Assembly (NCBI GenBank): GCA_034687125.1
Contig: JAQGBZ010000264.1
Span: 23,778-87,777, forward strand
DNA length: 64,000 bases
Direction of reading: 5' to 3'
DNA from: Neelides folsomi
Taxonomy: Eukaryota; Arthropoda; Collembola; Neelipleona; Neelidae
In this document: piece by piece, positions 1,349 through 33,158 of the stretch
How positions within the stretch are numbered: the stretch's first letter is position 1
Layout of the letters: every line of letters begins with the position of its first letter
The notes under the pieces: model-generated
Databases searched by the model: none
Told to the model about the DNA's origin: nothing
The model's input: only the letters and a program-made list of their open reading frames with translations
Position numbers and translations under genes: made by a program

Positions 1349-3275
1349 TTTCATGATATTCAAATAAATGGATAAAATATTAAATAACAATTTGAAGGCA
1401 TATTCCTGTGTATCACATCATATCATTCATATATATATACATATAATTATGTATGTGAGTACATTACCCACATTGGGTACTATAATAAATAGTGATATAC
1501 ACAATTACACAGTATTATATACATGAATGTAAATGCATATATCCTAATACTTTAATAGCATAAGTGCATAGGTATAAAATAAAATATTGAAATGTAACCA
1601 TTTTAATTTTAATTAAAGGAAAGTTGTATTATGCTAAAACCCTTTAAGTATTTATAATGGATGATGATTCCCCACTTCCTCGTTCGTACTTTGGTTAAAG
1701 TAATTCTGAGTAATAAATAATGAGTCAGATGACGATTTGTGATTATAGTATATCAAGATTTATATTTTATATTGCAAACGCGGTTGGATTCGTCGAAATA
1801 TAATTATGGCAATAATTTATTTATTCATTTACGCAATTATCAGTATTTAGATTATAATTTAGTAAACTATTTTGATTGATTTAACACTATCTAAACTTGT
1901 AAAATTACCAAATGAATTTAACACGTATTATATTATGCACACAGTATAATCGGTATTGTAATGTTACAATTTTATAACAAAAGGATATTCTTCATCAATG
2001 TCAATACGTCAATTCTGCTACATTATGAATAAATTAAATAAAATGAAATAAAAAAATCTCTGTTTGTATTCAATCAGAATCTATAATCTACCATAAAGGA
2101 AGATGGGAATGTTTAAGTTTTAATAACACATGTTGTAATTAAGTTAATTAATAAAAAAATAATTACTTACCCAATAGAAATCGAATACTTGACCCTTCCG
2201 AAGTTGTTTGCTATTAGGGTGGATTGAAATTGCATTTGCATATTTAGTGATGACTCATTGAATATTGTTATTGTATGGAAAAGAATCAAAATGATATTTT
2301 TAATCGAATGGGAATTCCTCGTTCTGCACATCCACAAACTCAACAAGCAAAACTCAATGGAGCAATTAAAAGACATTTGGAAAATATCGATACAAAATAT
2401 TCATTGTACTTTTAAGTGTAAAGAATTTCAATTGTCGCTCGATACCTCTTTCGTAACTTTGAATCATTCCATTCATAAGTATGTACATACCAGTACTGCT
2501 TAATTATGTTACGTATGTATTGTAATACATATATATATGAAAATATTCATTCATATTTCCAAATTTGAGCTAACTAACTTTATTTAATTTAATTTTAATA
2601 GTGTTAATTGTATGGTATGATATTTCATGGTTTGAGTTCAAGTTCAAAGTCTGCAAAAATTTGGTTCTGGTTGGTATATTGACGTCAGCAGTATAGGAAG
2701 TGAAAGCACTTGAAATAGGAATTTGATAATTGAATAAACACCATATCATTGATTTCATTCAAGAATTTGATTGATCGAGAAATCCAAGTAAAAAGTGTTA
2801 GACATGGATTCAGTTAAAGTTAATTATGATTAGGAATATCCTTTTTATCTATTTTGTACGTACTCATAATTACGAACAGTTTCACGAAGCTTAGCACGTG
2901 CATACAATCGGTAATTATAATTACGCAAAAGGAAGAAAAATGCAATTGAACAATGCCGATTTTCTATCAATTAATTAAATCTAGTTAATTTCCTTTCAAT
3001 TTTAATTTTTTAAAAATTTGCGTATTGGTTTCAAATACAAACAAGTCGAATTGCGTTTGAGTGTTTATTTGGACTTTAATAAAAAAATAATTAGGAAAGG
3101 CGTGAAAGATAATTAGAAAGATAATTAATTTTGTGTTTTAAAATGATAAATGTTATCAGGTGTTATCTGGATAAAATACATAAATTGGAGAAACCCTTTG
3201 GCTCTTCAATCAATTAATGAATTTCACTAAGAGGAGAAACACCAAACACAATTAGTAGTTAAGTAGACATTCAAA
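1349..3275. other. AT-rich intergenic DNA
   Basis: Contains several short ORFs on both strands near 2170-2760 that overlap each other and have no recognisable domain. The last 100 bp before the mucin gene hold a weak TATA-like stretch near 3171-3183. Nothing else is supported. Confidence 0.4.
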
Positions 3276-4691
3276 ATGTCTTTTTTATTTAAAGTTTTGA
3301 TTCTCACATTTTGCATTGGTTTCCAATTGCAGTCTGCGATAGCAAAACCCAACACGCATGCTTCAATCCACCGAATTCGGGATCCTTCCCTTCATCGAAA
3401 TGTCGTTGAGGAAGATTTAAACAAACGACTTACTTGGCCACCAAAATGGCCAACATGGCCACCAAGAACCACAACCACCACCACAACAACTCAAGCACCA
3501 ACAACTCGTCGCCATCCAACTTGGCCAACATTGCCAACCAAATGGCCAACATGGCCAGCGTGGCCAACCAAGAAAACCACCACGACCACCACAACCGAAG
3601 CCCCAACAGAACCACCCACAACTCGTCGTCGTCCAACTTGGCCAACTTTACCAACAAAATGGCCAACATGGCCAGCATGGCCAACCAAGAAAACCACCAC
3701 GACCACCACAACCGAAGCCCCAACCGAACCACCCACAACTCGTCGTCATCCAACTTGGCCAACTTTACCAACAAAATGGCCAACATGGCCAGCATGGCCA
3801 ACAAAAAAGACCACCACTACCACCACCACAACTGAAGCTCCAACAGAAGCCCCAACAGAAGCCCCAACTGAGGCTCCGACAGAGGCTCCAACAGAAGCCC
3901 CAACAGAAGCCCCAACTGAGGCTCCAACTGAGGCTCCAACTGAGGCTCCAACTGAGGCTCCAACTGAGGCTCCAACTGAGGCTCCAACCGATGCCCCAAC
4001 CGATGCCCCAACCACAACCAGACGTCCACATCCAACTTGGCCAACTTTGCCAACCAAATGGCCAACATGGCCAACATGGCCAACTTGGCCAACAAGAAAG
4101 ACTACGACCACAACCACCACAACCGAAGCCCCAACAGAACCACCAACCGATGCCCCAACCGAGGCTCCAACCGATGCCCCAACTGATGCACCAACCACGA
4201 CAAGACGTCCTCATCCAACTTGGCCAACCTTACCAACAAAATGGCCAACATGGCCAACATGGCCAACTTGGCCAACAAGAAAGACTACGACCACAACCAC
4301 CACAACTCAGGCACCAACTGAGGCTCCAACTCAGGCACCAACCACAAGACCAACAACAACGGCCAAGCCAACAACAACCGCTAAGCCAACAACGACAACT
4401 CAAGCTCCCACAACCACAACAAAGAAGACGACGACCACAACAGTGAAAACCACCACAAAACCTCCATCTTGCCCAACAGTCGATTGCAAGAAATTGTCCA
4501 ATGGAAACTATGCCAATCCAAGTGATTGCACAAGTTTCATTTCATGCTCGGGTGGAAACAAATACGTGATGGATTGCCCATCTAATCTTCATTACAATAC
4601 CAAGCTCGGAGTTTGCGATTGGCCACAAAATGCTAATTGTAGATCTTGCGATAGCGAAAGTGGATCTTCTGGTTCTGACTCATCAGATTAA
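3276..4691 (+). CDS. Secreted mucin-like protein with C-terminal chitin-binding (CBM14) domain
   Basis: A single 471-codon exon. Residues 1-23 (MSFLFKVLILTFCIGFQLQS then AIA) are a signal peptide. Residues about 50-390 are five rounds of a tryptophan-rich block (WPTLPTKWPTWP) followed by poly-Thr and TEAPTEAP runs, ideal for dense O-glycosylation; the longest APTE array is near residues 190-240. Residues about 405-460 hold six cysteines in the peritrophin-A pattern (CPTVDC, DCTSFISC, MDC, VCDW, NC), which binds chitin. The tail is acidic and Ser-rich. It is probably a peritrophic-matrix or cuticle mucin. The repeat regularity implies recent unequal expansion, so copy number may vary or be misassembled. 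ORFs in other frames here are shadows of the repeat. Confidence 0.92.
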   Translation: MSFLFKVLILTFCIGFQLQSAIAKPNTHASIHRIRDPSLHRNVVEEDLNKRLTWPPKWPTWPPRTTTTTTTTQAPTTRRHPTWPTLPTKWPTWPAWPTKKTTTTTTTEAPTEPPTTRRRPTWPTLPTKWPTWPAWPTKKTTTTTTTEAPTEPPTTRRHPTWPTLPTKWPTWPAWPTKKTTTTTTTTEAPTEAPTEAPTEAPTEAPTEAPTEAPTEAPTEAPTEAPTEAPTEAPTEAPTDAPTDAPTTTRRPHPTWPTLPTKWPTWPTWPTWPTRKTTTTTTTTEAPTEPPTDAPTEAPTDAPTDAPTTTRRPHPTWPTLPTKWPTWPTWPTWPTRKTTTTTTTTQAPTEAPTQAPTTRPTTTAKPTTTAKPTTTTQAPTTTTKKTTTTTVKTTTKPPSCPTVDCKKLSNGNYANPSDCTSFISCSGGNKYVMDCPSNLHYNTKLGVCDWPQNANCRSCDSESGSSGSDSSD

Positions 4692-17611: not shown

Positions 17612-20109
17612 ATGAGTTCCTGTGACGATTGTATGTTCAAAATGGGAGAATGGTGGTGCAATTTATTTATGAGGTTAGGACAATTACAAGCAATTGTTAA
17701 TTATAGTTGATTCACTCTCAACTGGCCGGTGAAAATTGAATCATGTTACTTGATTAGTTATTTGAAGTTAAAATAAACCGATATTTAGTTACATTTAAAT
17801 GTACTAATAATTTTCTGGTGACATGAAATTCTATTCCCCGGTCAATTAACATGATTCACTTTTCACCGGTCAGTTGAAAGTGAATGAACTTTTTTTATAA
17901 ACATTAACATTAAATATTTATTTTTATTTTTAATTGTTTTAATACATTTATTAAAAATGTTTAATCGGAATTAAGACTGATTTTAATTAATTTCAGGTGG
18001 AGACTTTGGATTCGCCCTTTTGTAATATTAGGCTACATCATTATCTTAATCGGACTTTTGCCATTTCTTGTCATTAACTGCTTTGGGACTGAATGTAACA
18101 ATCAGCAAAGGACAATTCTCATCGGAGGTTCAAATTAACAATTAAATAAAAAATCCAATTTTAAATATCAGTTCAATGTCAAATGTCAGTCCAATGTTAA
18201 AGTCAGTCCAATTCAATGTTTAAATAGTTAACGGTTATAAATTAAAAATTAAGCTTAATAAAGTAAATAATTTTAATTTGTAGGAATTTTCGCTTTGATG
18301 GCTCTTCCTATCAATTTCTACGAACTCACTCAGCACCTCGTTCACTATACAAAACCGGATCTTCAAAAACACGTCATACGGTACTACATTCTTATAGTTA
18401 AATTAAATTAAAGAATTTTAATTAAAATTAAAATATTAACAAAATTAACAAAATTAATTTAATTATTTATTTTGCAGAATTCTTTGGATGGTTCCAATTT
18501 ACGCTTTAGATGCCGTAAGTTAATTATTTATATTTTTGACAATTTGTCTCTTGTTGAAGTTAATTAACTATTTAATTTGCAATTAAGTTAATTAAGATCA
18601 GAATGTTTATTAATTAATATTTTTTTATTTCCAGTGGCTTGGTCTTTTGGCTCCTCAGTATTCGATCTTCGCTAATAGTTTGCGCGAGACTTATGAAGCC
18701 TACGTAATTTACAACTTTATGAAATTCCTCCTTAATTATTTGAATGCTGAAATGGATTTGGAAGCGACGTTGGAATTGAAGCAGCAAGTGAAACATCTTT
18801 TCCCACTTTGTTGTATTCGGGATTGGGAAATGGGAAGGGAATTTGTGCACAAGTGCAAACATGGAATTCTTCAATACACAGTCATTAGACCAATTACAAC
18901 CGCTATCGCTTTGTAAGTTAAACTTTGTAATTTAGTCAAATAATTAATTCTCTAATAACTTCAATTTAACAATTTAACTTCAATTTAGCTTTTAAACAGA
19001 TGATTTATAATGAATGATGTAAATTCATGATTTCTTAATCAATGTTATTTTCAGCATTTGTGAATTGTGTGGAGTTTACGGTGAAGATGAATTTCGTGCC
19101 GATGTTGCTTTCCCGTACATTATTGCAGTAAATAACATTTCGCAAGGAATAGCAATGTACTGTTTAGTTCTATTCTACAAAGCAAGCAAAGATGAATTGG
19201 CGCCGATGAGACCTTTAGGGAAATTCTTGTGCATTAAAGCCGTCGTTTTCTTTTCATTCTTGTAAGTTCAATTAAATTAAAGTGATTCTTGAACTTAATT
19301 AAGTAATTTTATCACTTACAATTTTTTACAATCAATTTACATCACTTGTTAGTTGTTAGTTAATTTAATAATTATTTTAATAGCCAAGGAGTTGCCATTT
19401 CAATTCTTGTCAACACGGGTGTCATCACAAACCAAATATTTGGAACGACGGATAAAACCGATGTGAAAGATGTTTCCTCAAGTTTACAAAATTTCTTAAT
19501 TTGCATCGAAATGTTTTTCGCGGCCATTGCCCATCATTACGCTTTCTCCTACAAGGCTTACATTGACTTAGCTGCAGATCAACCTAATTGTTGCGAAAGC
19601 TTTTGTCAAATGTGGGATGTTTCCGATGTGAGAAAAGATCTTGAAGAACATTATGGAGTTGTTAGTAAGTGAAAATATTAATTAATAAACTCAACTTTAT
19701 TTAAATAATAATAACTTGATACTTAATAAAGTTAAAAAGAACTGAAGTTAATTAAAGTAAATTTAAAATTTTGTTAAAATTAATTAAATTAATTAAAATT
19801 GGTTAATATTGATTAATTAAAATTTTTATAATTTTAGAGAGCACAGTGAAGAATGTAATTCCATCAAAGCGAGTTTACAGACATCCAGGTGGAGTTCGAA
19901 CCGAAAGAGCTCGACTTTTATCTGCAGGGGAATCCACGGATTATCAAAGTGGAAGTGAAGAAATAATTCCTTCAACTTCGGGTGTTGTGAGATCGGCAAG
20001 TTTAACAATTTTAGCCGAAATCTCACCAATTTCTCCAACAAGTCCGCCGTCACCAGATGAACAAAATTTCACAGACCTCACAGAAGATCTCATTTCGGAT
20101 TCTGAATAA
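17612..20109 (+). CDS. TMEM184C: TMEM184C-like transmembrane protein (DUF300/OST-alpha family)
   Basis: Eight exons: 17612-17673, 17997-18127, 18284-18380, 18478-18514, 18635-18912, 19055-19261, 19384-19664, 19838-20109; 454 residues, family length. It follows vertebrate TMEM184C from end to end: [101 protein letters not shown] and [11 protein letters not shown]. About seven membrane helices are followed by a Ser/Pro-rich cytosolic tail ([11 protein letters not shown]). Relatives are putative organic-solute or lipid transport-related proteins; the exact role is unsettled. The intron 1 holds a MITE. Confidence 0.95.
17706..17889. repeat. MITE in TMEM184 intron 1
   Basis: Inverted termini of about 43 bp: GTTGATTCACTCTCAACTGG at the left and, on the opposite strand, GTTCATTCACTTTCAACTGA at the right, continuing through CCGGTGAAAA and GAATCATGTTA with a few mismatches. 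The total of 184 bp has no coding capacity and lies wholly inside the intron. Confidence 0.7.
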
Positions 20110-20772
20110 GAATTGACAAATTTTCACGCTGCTTTGCCACTTTCAAATTGACTGTCAAATTTACCTCTTTTGCGTCCTATCATTCATATTATAAAAATAC
20201 TTATATAAAATATAAGTAAATATTATCTATTACTTCAACATTATATCATTTATGTCTAATGAAACAAAGTTATACGTATATAAATATTAACACTATATGT
20301 TTATCAAATTACTATTTATTATGATTATGATATATATTCTGAATATACATGTAGTTATATTTATATGATGTGATTTATATATTGTGTTTACTTTTGAAAA
20401 AAAAAAGATATTGTTTATATACTCATTGTAATGTGAATCCTTAATTAGTAATTTCATATATTACGCTACTTATAACTTTATGTTATTTTGTTAATGCATA
20501 GTTAGTGCTTATTAAAATTTTCCTTATAAAGAATTTGTGATTTATTTAATGTAAAATTATGATTAATAAATGTTTATTCGAATAATGTTAATATGTGAGT
20601 TTTTAATCATATTTATCGCTACATAAAATTATCCATGATGAATAATGAATTACATTACATATTCATTTTATTTGTTCGTGGGATTTTTTCATTTAATGAT
20701 TTTGATGGTGAACAATAGATGAAATAAAGTTTTGAATATAAATTTTAAATAAAAGTTATTGAATAATAATTC
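20110..20772. other. TMEM184 3' UTR and intergenic DNA
   Basis: Very AT-rich with AATAAA at about 20565; no gene seen. Confidence 0.4.
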
Positions 20773-21431
20773 CTAAAGATAAATCAAACATGAAATTGCC
20801 AAAAGTGAACATTCGATGATAAAAACAGGTAGAAACTTTCGAATGATTAAAGATGTTGGGTTGTAAGTTACAGGAGGTTTAAGTAAACTTCTAAATGTGT
20901 TAATTTTATCAAAATTAATTCTATTCCATTTATTAGCTTTATTAAACTGAATTAGATTTTTTTGCATACTGTAAAAGGAGTCAATAATTAAATTTCCTTC
21001 TTCCCACATTTTATATATTCCAGATGCAAACAGAGAATCAAAAATGAATTTGAACTTTTCATTAAAACTGGATTTAAAATTGAATTTAATAAAATAATAA
21101 TCGGAATAACTCATTTTATAAGATTTCAAATCCCGAACTTCTCTTTCTTTGATCATGTAATCATGCCGGGAAAATTGAATTCAAGATATATTTCATATTG
21201 ATATATATATTTTCTCATATCTGTCTAATATAAAAAAGTTTGATGGAACTTTGGTTTGGCCCAAAGGTGTGGAAAAATATTTTCTAAATTATCAATAAGT
21301 TTATTTTCAAGTGGAATATGGATAATTTTATCAGAAAATTCATTTTGAATCTCGTTATTAATTACCAAAGAAAATATATTTAAAACCTGGGAAATAATTG
21401 AAAGATTAAAATAAAAATTGAAAATATGCAT
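20773..21431 (-). pseudogene. Ionotropic-receptor-like fragment
   Basis: Minus-strand codons from 21156 to 20773 encode a C-terminal piece with FIFDSLFASGIYKMWEE and a final hydrophobic helix (KFLPVFIIECSLLAISCLIYL-like, trimmed here), the arrangement of the S2 lobe plus last membrane helix of arthropod ionotropic receptors. Upstream a 68-codon ORF (21431-21225) with a signal-peptide-like start is in another frame and is separated by stops; the ligand lobe S1 and pore are absent. It is either a relic of a receptor gene or a chance pairing of two scraps. Family call is tentative. Confidence 0.4.
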
Positions 21432-21665
21432 TGTTAAATTTCAAAAATTAAGACTTTGTTTAAAGAAGTCTTATTTACTTCAAATTAAGAAAAGAAATCA
21501 TAAATTATAATAGATAAATATAATTATGTAATTAAACCACGGCCATACAATCAAATTAAAAATTTATTAACACATCATTTTAAAATTACATACATTCGTG
21601 CTAATTCAATTAAAATATTTATTTATTCATAAACCTTTCAATTTTATTAAGGGAAAAAACTAATT

Positions 21666-23481
21666 TTAATCCATCCTTAAATTTGCATATGTTTTGCTTG
21701 TGGTTAACAAAATGTTGTCAATTTCCACTTTGTTATAAGTCCAGAAAATCATTCCACAATACAAAGACTCTTTGGGAAAAAACGGATCTCTAAGGAACAA
21801 ATTTTTTTTAACAACATTGTCAATCAAAAATTCGAATTGTTTCCCATCTTGGTCAATCGCAAGTTTTATGACATGCGTATGCCCAGAAGAGTCATTTCTC
21901 TTTTCTTGGTTTTCATTAAAAGCAAATCCCTTTTTGGATTTTGAAATTCCATCGTTTGTTAAATAGGTATCTTCGTTGTAATTGTACAATACAATTTCGC
22001 CCCTTCCGTAGTTAAATTGAAACAAAGGATTCCCAGTGGTTGTGTTGGTTTTAAATCTCGATTCGCAATCATAAAAACTAAAAGACGTCCGCCTTTTATC
22101 ATTAACTTCATAAGATTTCAAAATGTATTGAAAAATTAAAGATTTTCCTTTAAAGGAAAATGGCGGAAATGTTGCATACATATTTTGAATCGATTCGCTC
22201 AAATAAGAATTACCGGAATTGAACGTTGATTTAATCCGATTGACTTTAAAATCTTCATAAATTACGTAAGGAGTTTCGCTATTGTTATTGTTAGTTTTTG
22301 TTAGATCGGAATAAATTTGAATCCATTTATTTGAATAATTCCCGCTAACATCTCGTTCGAAATCTTCTTCGAAAGCGATCTCACTTTTGAACTCAATTCT
22401 TTCTACAGTTTTTTCCATTTTGGCCAGTTTTTCTTTCATTTGTGAATTACGTTCAAATAATTTTTTATTGAATTGTTCCGATTTTGCAAATTCTTCCTTT
22501 CTGATTTCCTTCTCATTTTCATGTAAACCTCTGAGGTCCGAAATATCAGTTTTTACCATTTTTAATTCTTCGGTAATTTTGAAAATAATATTATTAATTC
22601 CATCTGTCACTGAATGAGAAACATGTTCAATGACAATTTCATTCATTGTTTTAATTAAATCAATTTGTTTCTTTTCAATTAACCGTTTTATTAATTCGCT
22701 TTCTTCTTTGACATTTAATTTCAAATTTGATTCTAAATCTTGTAAATTTATTCCATTGGGCTTGGACCTTTCGCCCATACTTGTATCATAATCAGGATTA
22801 TTTTCTTTCCAACCCTCAACACATTTTTTTTCTAATTCATCACCAGCCAATTTTGTATTTTTACACATTTCCCTGTTGATCTTATCCAATTTTTTCTAAA
22901 ATAAAATTATATCGATCATAATATAAGTACATGGTATTTTATGTAATGATGTAGGTATGTTATATATTCAATTTTAAATGTTTTACCATTGTCATGTTAA
23001 ACATATCCAAATCATTTGTAAATTCGCATTCGCGAGATCTCTGCAAAAAATTATTAAAAATTACTCAAATATTTATAATATAATATTTATTTTATTAACA
23101 ATTAGCTTTTACAAGATATTCCTCATTTAAAATTCTGTTTAGGGTCGAATTCGTGGACTGGATCCAATTGCCTATAAAATTCTAATGAAAAACAAGCCAT
23201 TTGTTCAATATAAATATCGTTAATTAGTTTTAATAAAATATATTGACATATAATATAATACCAGTTTATTAATAACTTCATTTTGCCATGGACTATAACA
23301 ATTGCAATAACAGTCTCGATTTTGACTTCCTCGATTTTGACTTCTCTATAATTAAATAACCCAATTAATCAAATCCAATTTACATATATATAACATAAAA
23401 GTGTCGCTAACGAAATAATAAATGTTTCCACAATCTTACACAAACAATGACGAATCCAAAAAACCATAATAAAATTTTCAT
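21666..23481 (-). CDS. Secreted calreticulin-fold protein lacking the P-domain, with N-terminal coiled coil
   Basis: Exons 23481-23440, 23345-23262, 23181-23113, 23040-22987 and 22895-21666, all phase 0; 492 residues. Residues 1-14 (MKILLWFFGFVIVC) begin a signal peptide; a Cys cluster (CYCNCY) and an N-glycosylation-type NST site follow. Residues about 110-260 are charged and coiled-coil-like (KMEKTVERIEFKSE). Residues about 262-485 line up in order with the globular lectin domain of calreticulin: FEEDFERD...NKWI, NMYATFPPFSFKGKSLIFQY, THVIKLAIDQDGKQFEFLID and GMIFWTYNKVEIDNILLTTS. The Pro-rich P-domain that normally interrupts this fold is missing, and the end NLRMD is not a KDEL retrieval signal. 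So it is likely exported rather than ER-resident. The calreticulin match is by eye from known motifs. Confidence 0.75.
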
Positions 23482-24516
23482 TTTAGATTTATTCGGAAAA
23501 TTTTATGAAAATTTGTAATATGATAATATTACTTATAACCAACAAGTTTTTATTTGACTAAGCAAAACTATGTGCATTCATTGATTCCTAAAACCAAATA
23601 AAATTGTATAAAGTAATAATTACAGACTTAAAGTTCGATCATAAAGTACTTCCAAGATAATCTCATATTTAACCTTTCATGATCTTTTCTTGAATTTATT
23701 CCCTATTATATCTTGTGAATAAACATATAATACAAACTTAACTTTACTCATTTTATATCTTCCATATATGTATCTGTTATCTGTATGTATGTATGAACAA
23801 AATGAATATACACATTCATAAGTTTATCATAACAAATAATTCTCAAGAAAAAGATAAATCCTTTTAGTTTCATTTCATAATTCCATAATAAAAACGGATC
23901 GAGTCATTGATTACGATTCCACGTATACGATAACGTATAGGATATTATTGATATATTATTATTTTATAAATTATACATTGAGAGATAAAGACGTATATCA
24001 TAAATCATCATCATAATATAATTATAATATTTAAATAGAATTACATATTTGATGTGCAAGTGTATTAAAGGTTTAGGGGCACATCGAATATTATCACTAT
24101 TGCTCGCTCAAAAGTCCGCCAAATATTTTTGCTTGCGAGACTTGCGACTTTTGCACTAATATTAATGTTGCAGTTATTGCACTATTGATTTGGATTGAAC
24201 TTTTATTTTTAGTTAAAATTTATTGTTAAAAGTTCTAAATTTTAAATCTATTGTTTATTATTTCATTTACAAACTTATGATAATTACTTCACCTAATTAT
24301 AACACAAATTGGTGAGTAATTATTCGAATCAAAATATATTTTATATCTTTGTAATTTATTTTGTGGTTTTAATACTTTAATTATTATTAATTATAAGCAA
24401 CTTATCTCAACTTACAATTACTATTGATTCATTCATTTGTTAATTTTACTCAAGATCACGAACGAAATTGAACATTGAAATTAATTAAAAATTTATTACT
24501 TTTTCAGATATTAACG
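23482..24516. other. Intergenic DNA between divergent genes
   Basis: Shared upstream region of the calreticulin-like gene (minus) and MGME1 (plus). AT-rich; an acceptor-like TTTTTCAG at 24507 suggests a non-coding first exon of MGME1 near 24400. No other feature seen. Confidence 0.4.
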
Positions 24517-26236
24517 ATGCGGCGATCATTTAATTCTTCACTTGTTTCAACAATGAGAAATTATTGCACAAAGAAGAAGACAAAAGCAGCGGACCGAATA
24601 AAATCTCAATATCGCGAAGCAAAACTTTTGTACGGAGAACTCGCCGAGTCAAAGGCCATGCGAATGAAAAGGATGAGGAAGGATTTCAAAGAGAAAATTG
24701 CCCTTGGAGAAATTCCAATCCTCAACAAAGTCCCACAAGACAACACAGCTGAAGCTGAATGGAACACCAAAAGTTTCCCATCGAGATTGAAATTCCTCAA
24801 CATCGTGAAAGACAACTGGGACCCCAAATTTCCCAAAGATCCGATTCATTCAAAATACCCACAATTTTCACTTCATGTAAATAATCCTCCATTGCCAGAT
24901 TCAGAACCTCAGTCAATTTACAATTATCAAAATAATAATGAAATCCCCGTAGATCAAAATAATTTATTTAATGAAAATAATTCATTTAATGACAATTCCC
25001 ATCAAGTGCCTTTAAATGAATTTAATAAAGAAAATTCAATTAAAAATATTCTCAAAGTGCCAATTGAAAATCCCGAAAGAGAATCTTTGAATTTTACTTC
25101 ACAACAGCTGAAATGGAATCGGAAGGATTTAATCATTTCCAATCCTTTTGAATATTCTTCGCCTCGATTGCCAAGCGTTTCGAAAATCCTTTCAGCGACG
25201 ATGCCACCAGAGCAAGCTGAAGCTTTACTCAAATGGGAAAAGAGAATGATTGACAAATTGGGAATTGATGGATTTCATGCTTACAAAAAAGGTGATTTGA
25301 ATAATTTCAATTTTAATTTTAAATAATTAGAATTAAAACTATAATTATCATTTAATAATAATTATTATTTCAATTGTCCCAATATCTGTAAATTGCAATT
25401 ATTAAATTAAATTAATTTCGTTTAGATTTACTCGACGGTGGTAAAGAACTTCATCACAACATTCGATGTTTTCTGAGCGGAACCGAGGAATCTTCATTGA
25501 CAATTTCGCCGAGAATTTCTGGACATTGGGAAAGCTGCACGGGGATTTTGAGCCAAGTTGAAAATGTTGTGGCTTTGGAAAGTCACGTTGTTCATCCAAA
25601 GTTGAATTATTGTGGGGTTGTCGATTGTGTAGGATTTTTCAGGTGAGAATTTAAAACTTTAATCATAATTAAAATATGAATTAACATATTTCTAATTATT
25701 CATGATTGCTATGCAATTTGCTTAATTGGCTTTAAAATTAAATTAAATGCAATTGTTTTAATTTGAAGGTAAATTATGCTAAATTTTAAATTTATTATTT
25801 TGTTATTAGAGATAAACTTGTTTTGATTGATTGGAAAACTTCTGAGCGAGCGAAGAATTCCGTTGCGATGACTTACGACACTCCGATCCAAATCGCTGCT
25901 TACATCGGGGCCATCAATTACGATCCAAAATATTCATTTCAAGTAATTTAAGATTCAATATTGGATTTTATGATTAAATTTATTTACTGTGTTGTACTTG
26001 CATTTAATTATTGTTTATTAATGTTTATTGTTGACACAATTATTATTATAGTTTATTTAATAAGAGCGCTTTTATTGTTTTTTGTTTAGATCAATCAAGG
26101 ATTAATCGTCGTTGTTTATAAAGACGGATCAACAGCGAATCCTTTTATTCTTTCCACATCAATCTTGGAGAAAAATTGGGGCAAATGGCTTAAAAGACTC
26201 GAGCAGTTCAAAGATCTCAATAAAGAATCAATTTAG
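24517..26236 (+). CDS. MGME1: Mitochondrial genome maintenance exonuclease 1
   Basis: Exons 24517-25291, 25426-25642, 25810-25942 and 26090-26236; 423 residues, with a basic mitochondrial presequence (MRRSFNSSLVSTMRNY). The C-terminal half follows MGME1: LPSVSKILSATMPPEQAEAL near residue 215, then a PD-(D/E)XK nuclease core with VVDCVG, LIDWKTSE (D and K of the active site) and PIQIAAYIGA (the QxxxY motif). MGME1 trims single-stranded flaps during mitochondrial DNA replication and turnover (known biology). The region at residues 100-210 is a variable Asn-rich linker. An ATG 42 nt upstream is in frame, but an acceptor-like CAG lies between, so the inner ATG is preferred. Confidence 0.93.
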
Positions 26237-26526
26237 CACAATTACAATTTGGTCGCTTTTAAGCATCATTTATTATCATTATCGGTAATATTATTATTTA
26301 ACATTACTAGTTTTGAGTAGAATTGCATAAGGACAATTTATATATAGTTATAAGGGGATGCTAATTAAATGTAATAGACAAAAATGTCAATGGTGTATTT
26401 CCTTTTTTATTCAGTTACATTTCTTAAGTGATCTACTTTTTCTACTCTACATTAATTAGGAATTAAATATAATATTATTCTAACAATAAATTATACATGA
26501 TTAGTGATTAGATATTCAAAATCAAT
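26237..26526. other. Convergent 3' UTRs of MGME1 and the receptor kinase
   Basis: The two genes converge here. AT-rich sequence with poly(A)-like signals; nothing else. Confidence 0.4.
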
Positions 26527-29500
26527 TTACTTTGAAAAATTTTCCAACTCTTTTTTAACGCGAATTGATATTTCAAAAAATGGTGGGCGATCGTAAACTG
26601 AATCTTTCCAACAGTCCAACATTAAATTATATCTGTATTATTTAGATTGAATTAAAATTAAATAATCTACTTTATAAACAATAAAGATTAATGAAACAAA
26701 TTTAAAATTTATGGGATATTATTGGATGTAATGAAAAATTGATAAATGTTAAATTACATTTCATTTGTTGAATAATTTGGTTTGTGCATTCTCATCCCAT
26801 CTTTAAGTCCTTTAACAAAATCCAAACTCCAATTACATCCAGGATAAGGATCATTTCCCATTGAAAACATTTCCCATAAAGTAATTCCGTATGACCAAAC
26901 ATCAGACTTTTCAGAAAAAGTTAAAGTTTCCAAAGCTTCAATTGACATCCATTTCCAAGGAAGCGGACCCTACGTTCATTATACGTAAATTTAACAATAC
27001 ATTTAACTTATTTAACAATGTTACTGTTTTCATATATCAAGTTATTATGACTAGTTAAAAATTTTACTTGTGATTTTTTGATATAATTAATCTCTTCAAA
27101 TATTTGTCTTGAAAGACCAAAGTCACAAATCTTAACTTCATATTTAGATGTAAGCAAAATGTTCCGTGTTGCTAAATCACAATGGACCACCTGAATATTT
27201 TAAGTTTTATAATCAAATATAAAATATCCTTAAAAGATTTAAATTATATTAATGTGTTCTTAATTTAATTTAATTTTTACTTTATTTTCAGCAAGATATT
27301 TCATTCCTTCAGCTATTTCAATTGACCATTTAAGTAACGTTTTAATTATCATATTCTCTTCATTGTTCTTTTCATTTCTAAATCATTAATTTTTTTTATA
27401 AATTATTAAATTGATCAACATTAGTCATATTCTTAAAATTGCCATTTATAATTTCCAATATTGATAAAACGAATTGAACTCACGCGAAACAGTTTTGATA
27501 AATTGAATCCTCTTGTGAAACATTTGCGTATGCACTTTCATTCCAAATCAATTTTCCTTTTCGCAAAACATCCAAAAGGCATCCATTTTCACAGAATTCA
27601 ACTGCTACGTATATTTCATCTGGAAGTTTATTTTGTTTTAATTAAAATTAATTGGATATTTAACGTTAAACCTTATATGCATTGAATTATTTAGTTAAAA
27701 TATTAAAATTACTCTCCCGGATATTTTCTGTACAGGCAGCAACTAAGGAAACAATATGTTTGTGTTTTCCAACAGACGCCATCAATTTTAATTCATTGAG
27801 CAGAGATTTCACTTGAACCAATTCAACTCCAGATTTAACAATTTTAATGGCAACTTCTTGATTTGTTTCTTTTAAGTCTACAGAACCTTTCATTACATAA
27901 CCAAAACACCCTTGGCCTAACATTTGATCTCCTAAAATAATTAAATGTTTAAACTTAATTACAATTATGTTAAAGATAATTAATTATTTCATTATAGAAT
28001 AATTAATTGCTAGCAAACTAGCAACGCGCCATTCTTGCGCAACTTTTAGCGCCAAGTAGGTTGCGCATTGAAAGTATGTAGGTAATGACCCGCTACCGCT
28101 GAATGTTTTGTTACCAATATTAATCTTTGTTCTTGGAATTTCGTATGAGAAATTATATTTAATATTTTCAGTGTTGACATATTGATTATCTTTAAAAGAT
28201 TCAAATCCTTCTTCAAATGCTTTGATTTCTTCTTCTGTTAAAAATCTCACTAAAGCTTTTTTGTTTTCATTATACTTGTAAAATAAAAATAAGATGATCA
28301 ACAATAGAGATAAGATCAATGAAGCTATAGATCCAATAATGATTTTTGTTTTTTCTTCGTTTGGATCTACATATATCAATAGTTAAAATTTAGAAACATG
28401 TTATTGTTTAAAATTTTAATTATTTTAAAGATTTAATTATATTTATTTAGTCATTTTAGTATAATTAGTTTTTATTACCTTTATATTTGACAACGAAAAT
28501 CTTTTCGACTGTTCCAAATGGATTACTCATTCTGCAAATATATCGACCTTCTTTTGAAATTCTCAATATTTTATCATTTGTTTTGATGGCATCATGCTAT
28601 ATCAAATAATTGTAATTTTATTTAAGTTATAACTTTAAATATTATTAATATGAAATTTAATGTAACGAATTATTATAAATTATCTCAACCATAATTCCGT
28701 AAATCCATTCTATTTTTGGTTTAGGATTTCCAAATGTATTATTGCAAAACAAGTCCAATTCGTTATTTATAAACAATTCTTCATGATCAACTTCAAATGA
28801 AGGTTTTTCAGGAACTGAAAAATGAAATTATTTGAAAATAATTGTTGATTGTAAATTATATTTTTATTACCGGATAATTTTATATTTAATGATTTGTTAT
28901 AGAAGGCGTTATTTAGCCAATATAATCCTTCACAAGAAATCTTCTTAATTTTGTCCTTTAATTCAAATTTTTTTGTTTTAATTACACTATTAACGTTCTG
29001 AATTGGATTGTATTGGACAAATTCTTCAACATTCTCTTCTATATAAATGTCAATTTTGAATCAATAATTAAGATTAGGTTAGGTTAAGTTTTAACTTTAA
29101 TTCGTATTTAACGTTTAATAAACCTTTTATTGTTCCATTTAGAAATTCGTATTTTATAAATAATGGCCCATCATAAAATACTAATTTTGACCAAATGCAT
29201 TGGAATGTAATGTTTAAAGTGTAAACTAAATCCTGATCTTCATGAATATATAACTCCATCATTTGTTTGATATCAATTTTATCCCAATGATTATCTAAAA
29301 ATGTAGAAAACCTTATAAAAATATCAATAATAAAGTTAATTTTTAATTAAGATATTAATAGTAATGTTAAAAATACTATACAGTAATTTGAATATTTGGG
29401 AAGAGAAAAAATGAGAAAATTTAATTTCTTAGTGGACCCATCTTGACAATAGTCAACAAAATAACCAGCACTTTTATACTTAATTTGAACAGAAGATAAA

Positions 29501-32230: not shown

Positions 32231-32819
32231 AATTTTATTAAAAGTATTAAACGTTTAATATTAAAAGTTGTGTTAACGACTTCTGTTATACATTTTATAG
32301 GAATTAATAAGGAAGTGGAATTATAAATATTAACAATTTAATTTTCCTTCAATTTCAATTTCACTGTAATTTAAGCATAAAAATTTATTTATATTCTAAT
32401 TTCGACCAATTTCTTGAATAAGTACGATTTTCCTCTCATATTTCTAAGATAAAGAAATCCAAGGTCTTAATTAAACTATTTTATATAAATAAATATTTAA
32501 TTTGAATGTCAGTCTAATAGAAAATGCAATTTTAATGTCATTCTTTGCAATCGGCAAATTAACAAGTAAATTTCTTTAATTAAAATTCTAATTTCCAGAA
32601 ATATGAAAAAAAAGTTAATAATAACAATTTTCTTTCAATATTCATTTAGTAAACGTTATAACATCAGTCAATACATATGTATTTATGTATTCAAGAATGA
32701 AATGATGTAATACTTAAGTATTAGTATTGTAAGTGAGTACGAATTGTTTTTAAATTAATAATGATTAAAAACTTTAATAATGATTTTAATCATTCTTAAT
32801 TTAAAAATAACCACTTTCC
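32231..32819. other. Upstream region of the receptor kinase
   Basis: AT-rich with no gene; it must hold the kinase promoter, but no clear motif stands out. Confidence 0.35.
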
Positions 32820-33158
32820 ATGGGATCATCGGCTGGTGAAAAACAACCGGGTACATTTGACCACGGTGACATGTGCCATAGGACGAGATGGCGAAGAACA
32901 CAAGCACTGGCTGATACGTTTTGGAAACGTTGGACTCGCGAATGCATTCCGACCCTCAACAAGCGACAAAAGTGGCACGGAAAGGTGACCGAAGTGGAAA
33001 TCGGTGACGTGGTCTTGCTCTATGGACCTGAGATGCCAAGGAACACATGGCCCAAAGGCATAGTGATGAAGACGTTCCCAGGAACGGATGGAACAGTTCG
33101 GACAGTGAAGGTGCGGACCAGGAACGGAACCTACATCCGACCAGTCACCAGAGTTTAG
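32820..33158 (+). mobile_element. BEL/Pao retrotransposon relic (C-terminal pol fragment, DUF5641)
   Basis: The open frame reads RTRWRRTQALADTFWKRWTR, KRQKWHGKVTEVEIGDVVLL and PRNTWPKGIVMKTFPGTDG, the conserved C-terminal domain after integrase in BEL/Pao pol. It is far less AT-rich than neighbouring DNA. No gag, protease, RT or integrase remains upstream, so this is the 3' end of a 5'-truncated or deleted copy. Downstream, GGAACCGCCGGCCCGG followed by TGTATTGACTG at about 33219 could be the polypurine-side boundary and LTR start. Confidence 0.85.

Follow-up and report, generated by a model that had tools for sequence, protein, structure and literature searches.

A gene on the minus strand of a 64,000-nucleotide stretch of the Neelides folsomi genome (contig JAQGBZ010000264.1, positions 23,778 to 87,777; hereafter the window) encodes a homolog of the calreticulin globular domain that is preceded by a predicted helical stalk and lacks the P-domain, the acidic tail and the ER-retrieval signal. 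Calreticulin is a highly conserved chaperone of the ER, and the P-domain is regarded as one of its defining features. That a single small arthropod genome contains two dozen stalked copies which lack the P-domain and look extracellular suggests that the globular head of calreticulin can live alone and be recruited to another job. Our favoured reading, to which we give about an even chance of being right, is that the protein would be secreted, probably multivalent, and act as a stalked binding protein of calreticulin descent with a changed ligand. Here we describe the gene and its family, and weigh this reading against four others.

Gene structure and surroundings

The gene extends from position 23481 to 21666 on the minus strand, and its five exons, separated by GT-AG introns that are all in phase 0, join to encode 492 amino acids, in agreement with the residue numbering used in an earlier, sequence-only reading of this DNA. 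Exon 1 (23440..23481) provides the ATG together with a putative signal peptide, MKILLWFFGFVIVC, judged as such by eye, and ends in phase 0 at the donor GTAAGATT. Exon 2 (23262..23345) is short and contains cysteines (RDCYCNCYSPW); like exons 3 (23113..23181) and 4 (22987..23040) it has AG/GT ends in phase 0. Exon 5 (21666..22895) encodes both the stalk (22392..22745, residues 134-251 of the full-length protein) and the calreticulin-like head (21669..22400, residues 249-492), and is open for 409 codons plus a stop, compared to a maximum of 116 codons in 500 mononucleotide shuffles of the same exon. The four segments quoted earlier as following the order of the calreticulin globular domain all reside in the open frame of the head. 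Neither tblastn nor a motif scan of the paralog loci yielded a convincing match to exons 1-4, and exons 2-4 are for this reason the least secure portion of the gene model.

Several other features of the window were recorded. Just downstream of the gene a small frame on the minus strand (20773-21156), which has no Pfam match, looks on inspection by eye like the C-terminus of an ionotropic (glutamate-like) receptor. On the plus strand, residues 230-273 of a frame at 24475-25326 match mitochondrial genome maintenance exonuclease 1 (E 4.6e-4) while its long N-terminal part is unmatched, and a frame of 474 amino acids at 3267-4688 with Thr/Pro-rich tandem repeats (WPTWPT, TEAP) and a signal-like start looks by eye like a mucin-like secreted protein. 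A DUF5641 match (3.5e-29) lies at 32811-33155, also on the plus strand; this domain usually belongs to Pao/BEL-type retroelements. Finally, a tyrosine-kinase-like exon at 27690-28382 on the minus strand (2.2e-13) follows a transmembrane-looking frame, and the two probably belong to a receptor kinase.

Homology of the head to calreticulin

As a single sequence the window protein has no calreticulin match in Pfam, and against the PDB it returns four chance matches, the best at E 0.51 and none of them a calreticulin; calreticulin emerges only from the profile built on the family, from the paralogs and from the fold. A profile of 14 family domains matches calreticulin at 1.1e-8, and among the 16 chains listed with E values to 10, calreticulin or calnexin takes the first 11 places. 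When the calreticulin-like paralog C139 is removed, calreticulins still account for the top 9 of the 12 chains listed, at E 0.0021-0.045, and judged by these sequence scores the match is above chance. The Pfam Calreticulin profile (PF00262), suggested earlier as a check, gives a divided answer: the window protein falls below the cut-off of 25 bits, but two of 17 family frames pass it, C139 with 34.6 and C53 with 29.6 bits. C139 also matches calreticulin in the PDB at 3.1e-11.

A fold search with the predicted structure, the underlying alignment (A2) of which includes C139 and the predictor of which, AlphaFold2, was trained on known structures, identifies the head as the jelly-roll globular domain of calreticulin at approximately 17% identity; Emp46p and legume-lectin-like domains, which are sugar-binding jelly-rolls, rank below it. 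Family profile and predicted fold agree on the calreticulin jelly-roll that the sequence-only reading had proposed, and we regard the homology of the head to calreticulin as firm.

A diverged gene family

Three single-protein searches of the genome (75.1 Mb, 840 contigs) pooled to 24 family places at E <= 0.01, counting the window gene itself and a single decayed copy, and two further copies were recognised by eye, one of them C237a (L036:862-1746) and the other an additional C76 copy, which had scored E 0.377. From these 26 places 21 domains were counted; excluded were the C227 copy that has decayed, the C781 fragment at a contig edge, the incomplete second C76 copy and, at C237, two more places whose frames are split or broken. 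The same genome retains a normal calreticulin and a calnexin. Its arthropod nature shows in 39 chitin_bind_4 cuticle-domain matches, and a nematode source is rejected on these together with the lack of an exact SL1 sequence and of TTR-52. Blo-t-5 and pectate lyase 3 were not found either; since TTR-52, Blo-t-5 and pectate lyase 3 gave no signal in the control genomes, these three absences carry little weight. Intradiol dioxygenase is absent, with the controls positive. There are three weak 7tm_6 matches, the best frame of which resembles by eye a gustatory receptor more closely, and two weak PBP_GOBP matches. The window gene, put forward earlier as a possible new architecture, is no single oddity; a literature search through titles and abstract openings, with most subscription papers outside its scope, returned no description of stalked calreticulins without a P-domain.

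In a tree of these domains a branch with 100/100 support separates C139, C53 (on a long branch), C622 and calreticulin from the other 18 domains, which form the derived side. The window gene is among these 18 and is weakly nearest to C680 and C449 (87/85). C139 appears by eye to have a signal-peptide-like exon of its own and, ahead of the head, an exon that is helical. Two single frames at C227 and C780 combine tandem double heads with a stalk (L017:6305-7927, 541 amino acids, and L018:2184-3785, 534 amino acids, both minus strand). The copies C133 (L035:899-1714) and C237a, also on the minus strand, form a divergent pair that lacks Cys112, His170 and Asp187 yet keeps the second cysteine pair described below, and may have yet another function.

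A copy with in-frame stops (G000:C227:66318-66818, in L017) adjoins intact ones, a juxtaposition indicative of birth-and-death evolution of the family. This sister copy, at about 66.3 kb of C227, is also the one observation in favour of reading the window gene itself as a decaying, functionless copy. We consider this very improbable: the gene is open over the 409 codons of exon 5, the head keeps the equivalents of Cys112/Cys215 and His170/Asp187, and dN/dS is below 1 in other paralog pairs. By the NG86 method it ranges from 0.18 to 0.63 in all seven pairs tested, where dS may be near saturation, and two of the seven pairs fail by a second method, YN00; all of these pairs consist of paralogs other than the window gene.

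Cysteines and descent

The head of the window protein has only two cysteines, Cys112 (22065..22067) and Cys215 (21756..21758) in the numbering of the domain, which may form a disulfide. Cys112 is found in 19 and Cys215 in 20 of the 21 domains, and both are present in the calreticulin of the same genome, while human calreticulin has neither. That the pair is common to the family and this calreticulin points to descent from the calreticulin of this lineage, in keeping with the ER-chaperone origin suggested earlier, and makes calreticulin the nearer parent than calnexin. Calnexin was considered as the parent and is less likely, the pair not being seen by eye in the calnexin frames of the genome. 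Cys188 and Cys202 make up a second pair: 17 domains have both residues and four (window, C139, C53 and C622) have neither, a pattern of joint presence and absence that fits the expectation for a disulfide.

Loss of the P-domain and of the ER-retrieval signal

In human calreticulin the P-domain comprises residues 204-302 (PMC3057994). At its exact insertion site the window protein has a linker of 20 residues (21759..21818, minus strand) inside one uninterrupted exon, and the corresponding linker measures 18-21 residues in all 21 family domains examined. A six-frame scan for a set of P-domain motifs across positions 18001-29000 of the window found none, and of all loci fetched, those of the genuine calreticulin and calnexin of the genome are the only ones to contain such motifs. 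An overlooked P-domain exon is rejected on both grounds, the uninterrupted head exon and the absence of the motifs nearby; the P-domain is truly missing from the window protein, as had been claimed.

The C-terminus, ..YANLRMD, likewise bears out the earlier statement that there is no KDEL, and a calreticulin-type acidic tail is absent as well. The true calreticulin of the genome ends in HDEL; no KDEL-like end occurs in the family frames read, a few of which may stop at an intron.

Glucose site and second surface patch

Residues were counted across the 21 domains by fixed distance from conserved columns because the alignment misplaces Asp317 and Trp319 in some rows. The glucose site is practically erased: Tyr109 and Asp317 are kept in 0/21 domains, and Lys111 and Trp319 in 1/21 each. 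The window protein carries Ser, Ser and Trp in place of Tyr109, Lys111 and Asp317, respectively. These losses weaken the designation 'lectin' in the sense in which it applies to calreticulin, and here the sequence-only reading has to be amended. We propose from these residues that the head would no longer bind monoglucosylated N-glycans as calreticulin does and that its ligand has changed to a protein, a lipid or another glycan.

The last of these options would make the protein a secreted lectin whose concave sheet, the same one as in calreticulin, has acquired a new sugar specificity and whose stalk bundles it in the manner of a collectin. This is possible but clearly less probable than our favoured reading. 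The sugar-binding jelly-rolls among the fold neighbours speak for it, as do C53 and C622, which carry the conservative replacements Phe and Arg at Tyr109 and Lys111; against it, no conserved replacement site was identified, and the glucose-site positions vary freely among the members.

A second conserved surface patch of calreticulin, at the opposite face of the barrel, consists of Asp166, His170, Tyr172, Asp187 and Trp347, and the His170Ala substitution impairs chaperone function (PMC3057994). Two residues of the patch fare better than the glucose site: His170 (codon 21873..21875 in the window gene) and Asp187 (21819..21821) are each kept in 17/21 domains and together in 16/21, and their conservation places them 8th-9th among 196 aligned columns of calreticulin. 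His170 is lost in C133, C237a, C789 and C53. Conservation does not extend over the whole patch, with Asp166 kept in 10/21 domains, Tyr172 in 6/21, and Asp166, His170 and Asp187 together in 9/21; the window protein has the His and the Asp, Ser at Asp166 and Ile at Tyr172, and ends short of the position of Trp347. The calreticulin of the genome keeps Asp166 and His170 (His codon CAC). Outside the patch, 14/21 domains retain Asp328, a Ca2+ ligand.

Retention of His170 and Asp187 may be structural rather than functional. If functional, it would suit a luminal co-chaperone or receptor of the ER or Golgi that uses the patch for polypeptide clients and dispenses with sugar binding and P-domain partners, and both the conservation rank of the two residues and the His170Ala phenotype are consistent with such a role. 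We nonetheless consider it unlikely, given the lack of a KDEL-like end in the frames read (subject to the few that may stop at an intron), the number and divergence of the copies, which are unlike those of housekeeping chaperones, and the Ser of the window protein at Asp166 in a patch that could be structural. The loss of the glucose site combined with the retention of His170/Asp187 offers a route to test the role of the patch.

The stalk

AlphaFold2 models exon 5 as a single chain, in which one 118-residue helix (residues 51-168 of the exon; pLDDT by block 56-84) precedes the head, where a coiled coil had been claimed. The helix holds up as a prediction; the coiled coil is likely rather than demonstrated, the hydrophobic periodicity being modest. 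Its period of 3.75, reached by 12/400 shuffles, is more like that of one amphipathic helix than of a canonical heptad. Periodicity at 3.40-3.75 exceeds that of shuffles in C642, C306, C227a, C780 and C789 (0-5/400) and is modest in C531 (13/400), and in C76a (49/400) and residues 43-127 of the window protein (76/400) it is not above shuffles.

A coiled coil also features in the reading of the protein as a secreted effector against another organism, a modulator of host immunity comparable to the venom calreticulins of parasitoid wasps. Venom calreticulin suppresses encapsulation, and the coiled coil of one venom calreticulin is said to aid entry into haemocytes (PMC7023170); the multigene, divergent character of the family would fit as well. 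That source describes the known venom proteins as calreticulins with conserved calreticulin domains and not as P-domain-less forms, and an effector role is about as improbable as that of a luminal co-chaperone.

Proposed origin and comparison with known systems

In the scenario that we favour, a duplicated arthropod calreticulin would have shed the P-domain together with the acidic tail and the signal for ER retrieval and acquired a helical stalk at its N-terminus, after which the copies multiplied. The window protein would enter the secretory pathway and escape ER retention, its stalk would probably bundle several copies, and the jelly-roll heads would be displayed outside the cell as a multivalent binder. 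More tentatively, and with less than an even chance, the family may constitute a natural separation-of-function series, in which P-domain, ER tag and lectin site were discarded, the His170/Asp187 patch was mostly kept and the head was turned into a stalked, multivalent, secreted binder; it would then be possible to study the role of the patch separately from sugar binding.

Collectins, ficolins and C1q-domain proteins are secreted heads on an oligomerising stalk, and their resemblance to the window protein is an analogy of how they work only. The L-type lectins of the secretory pathway (Emp46p/Emp47p) have the jelly-roll in common with the window head, and some lectins of this type have a helical stalk. 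Compared to the luminal domain of calnexin (PDB 1jhn) the window protein lacks the P-domain. In contrast to the globular (N+C) domain of calreticulin (PDB 3pow/3o0w) it is devoid of the P-domain, the acidic tail, the KDEL, the residues of the glucose site and the Cys105-Cys137 pair, and possesses an N-terminal helical stalk.
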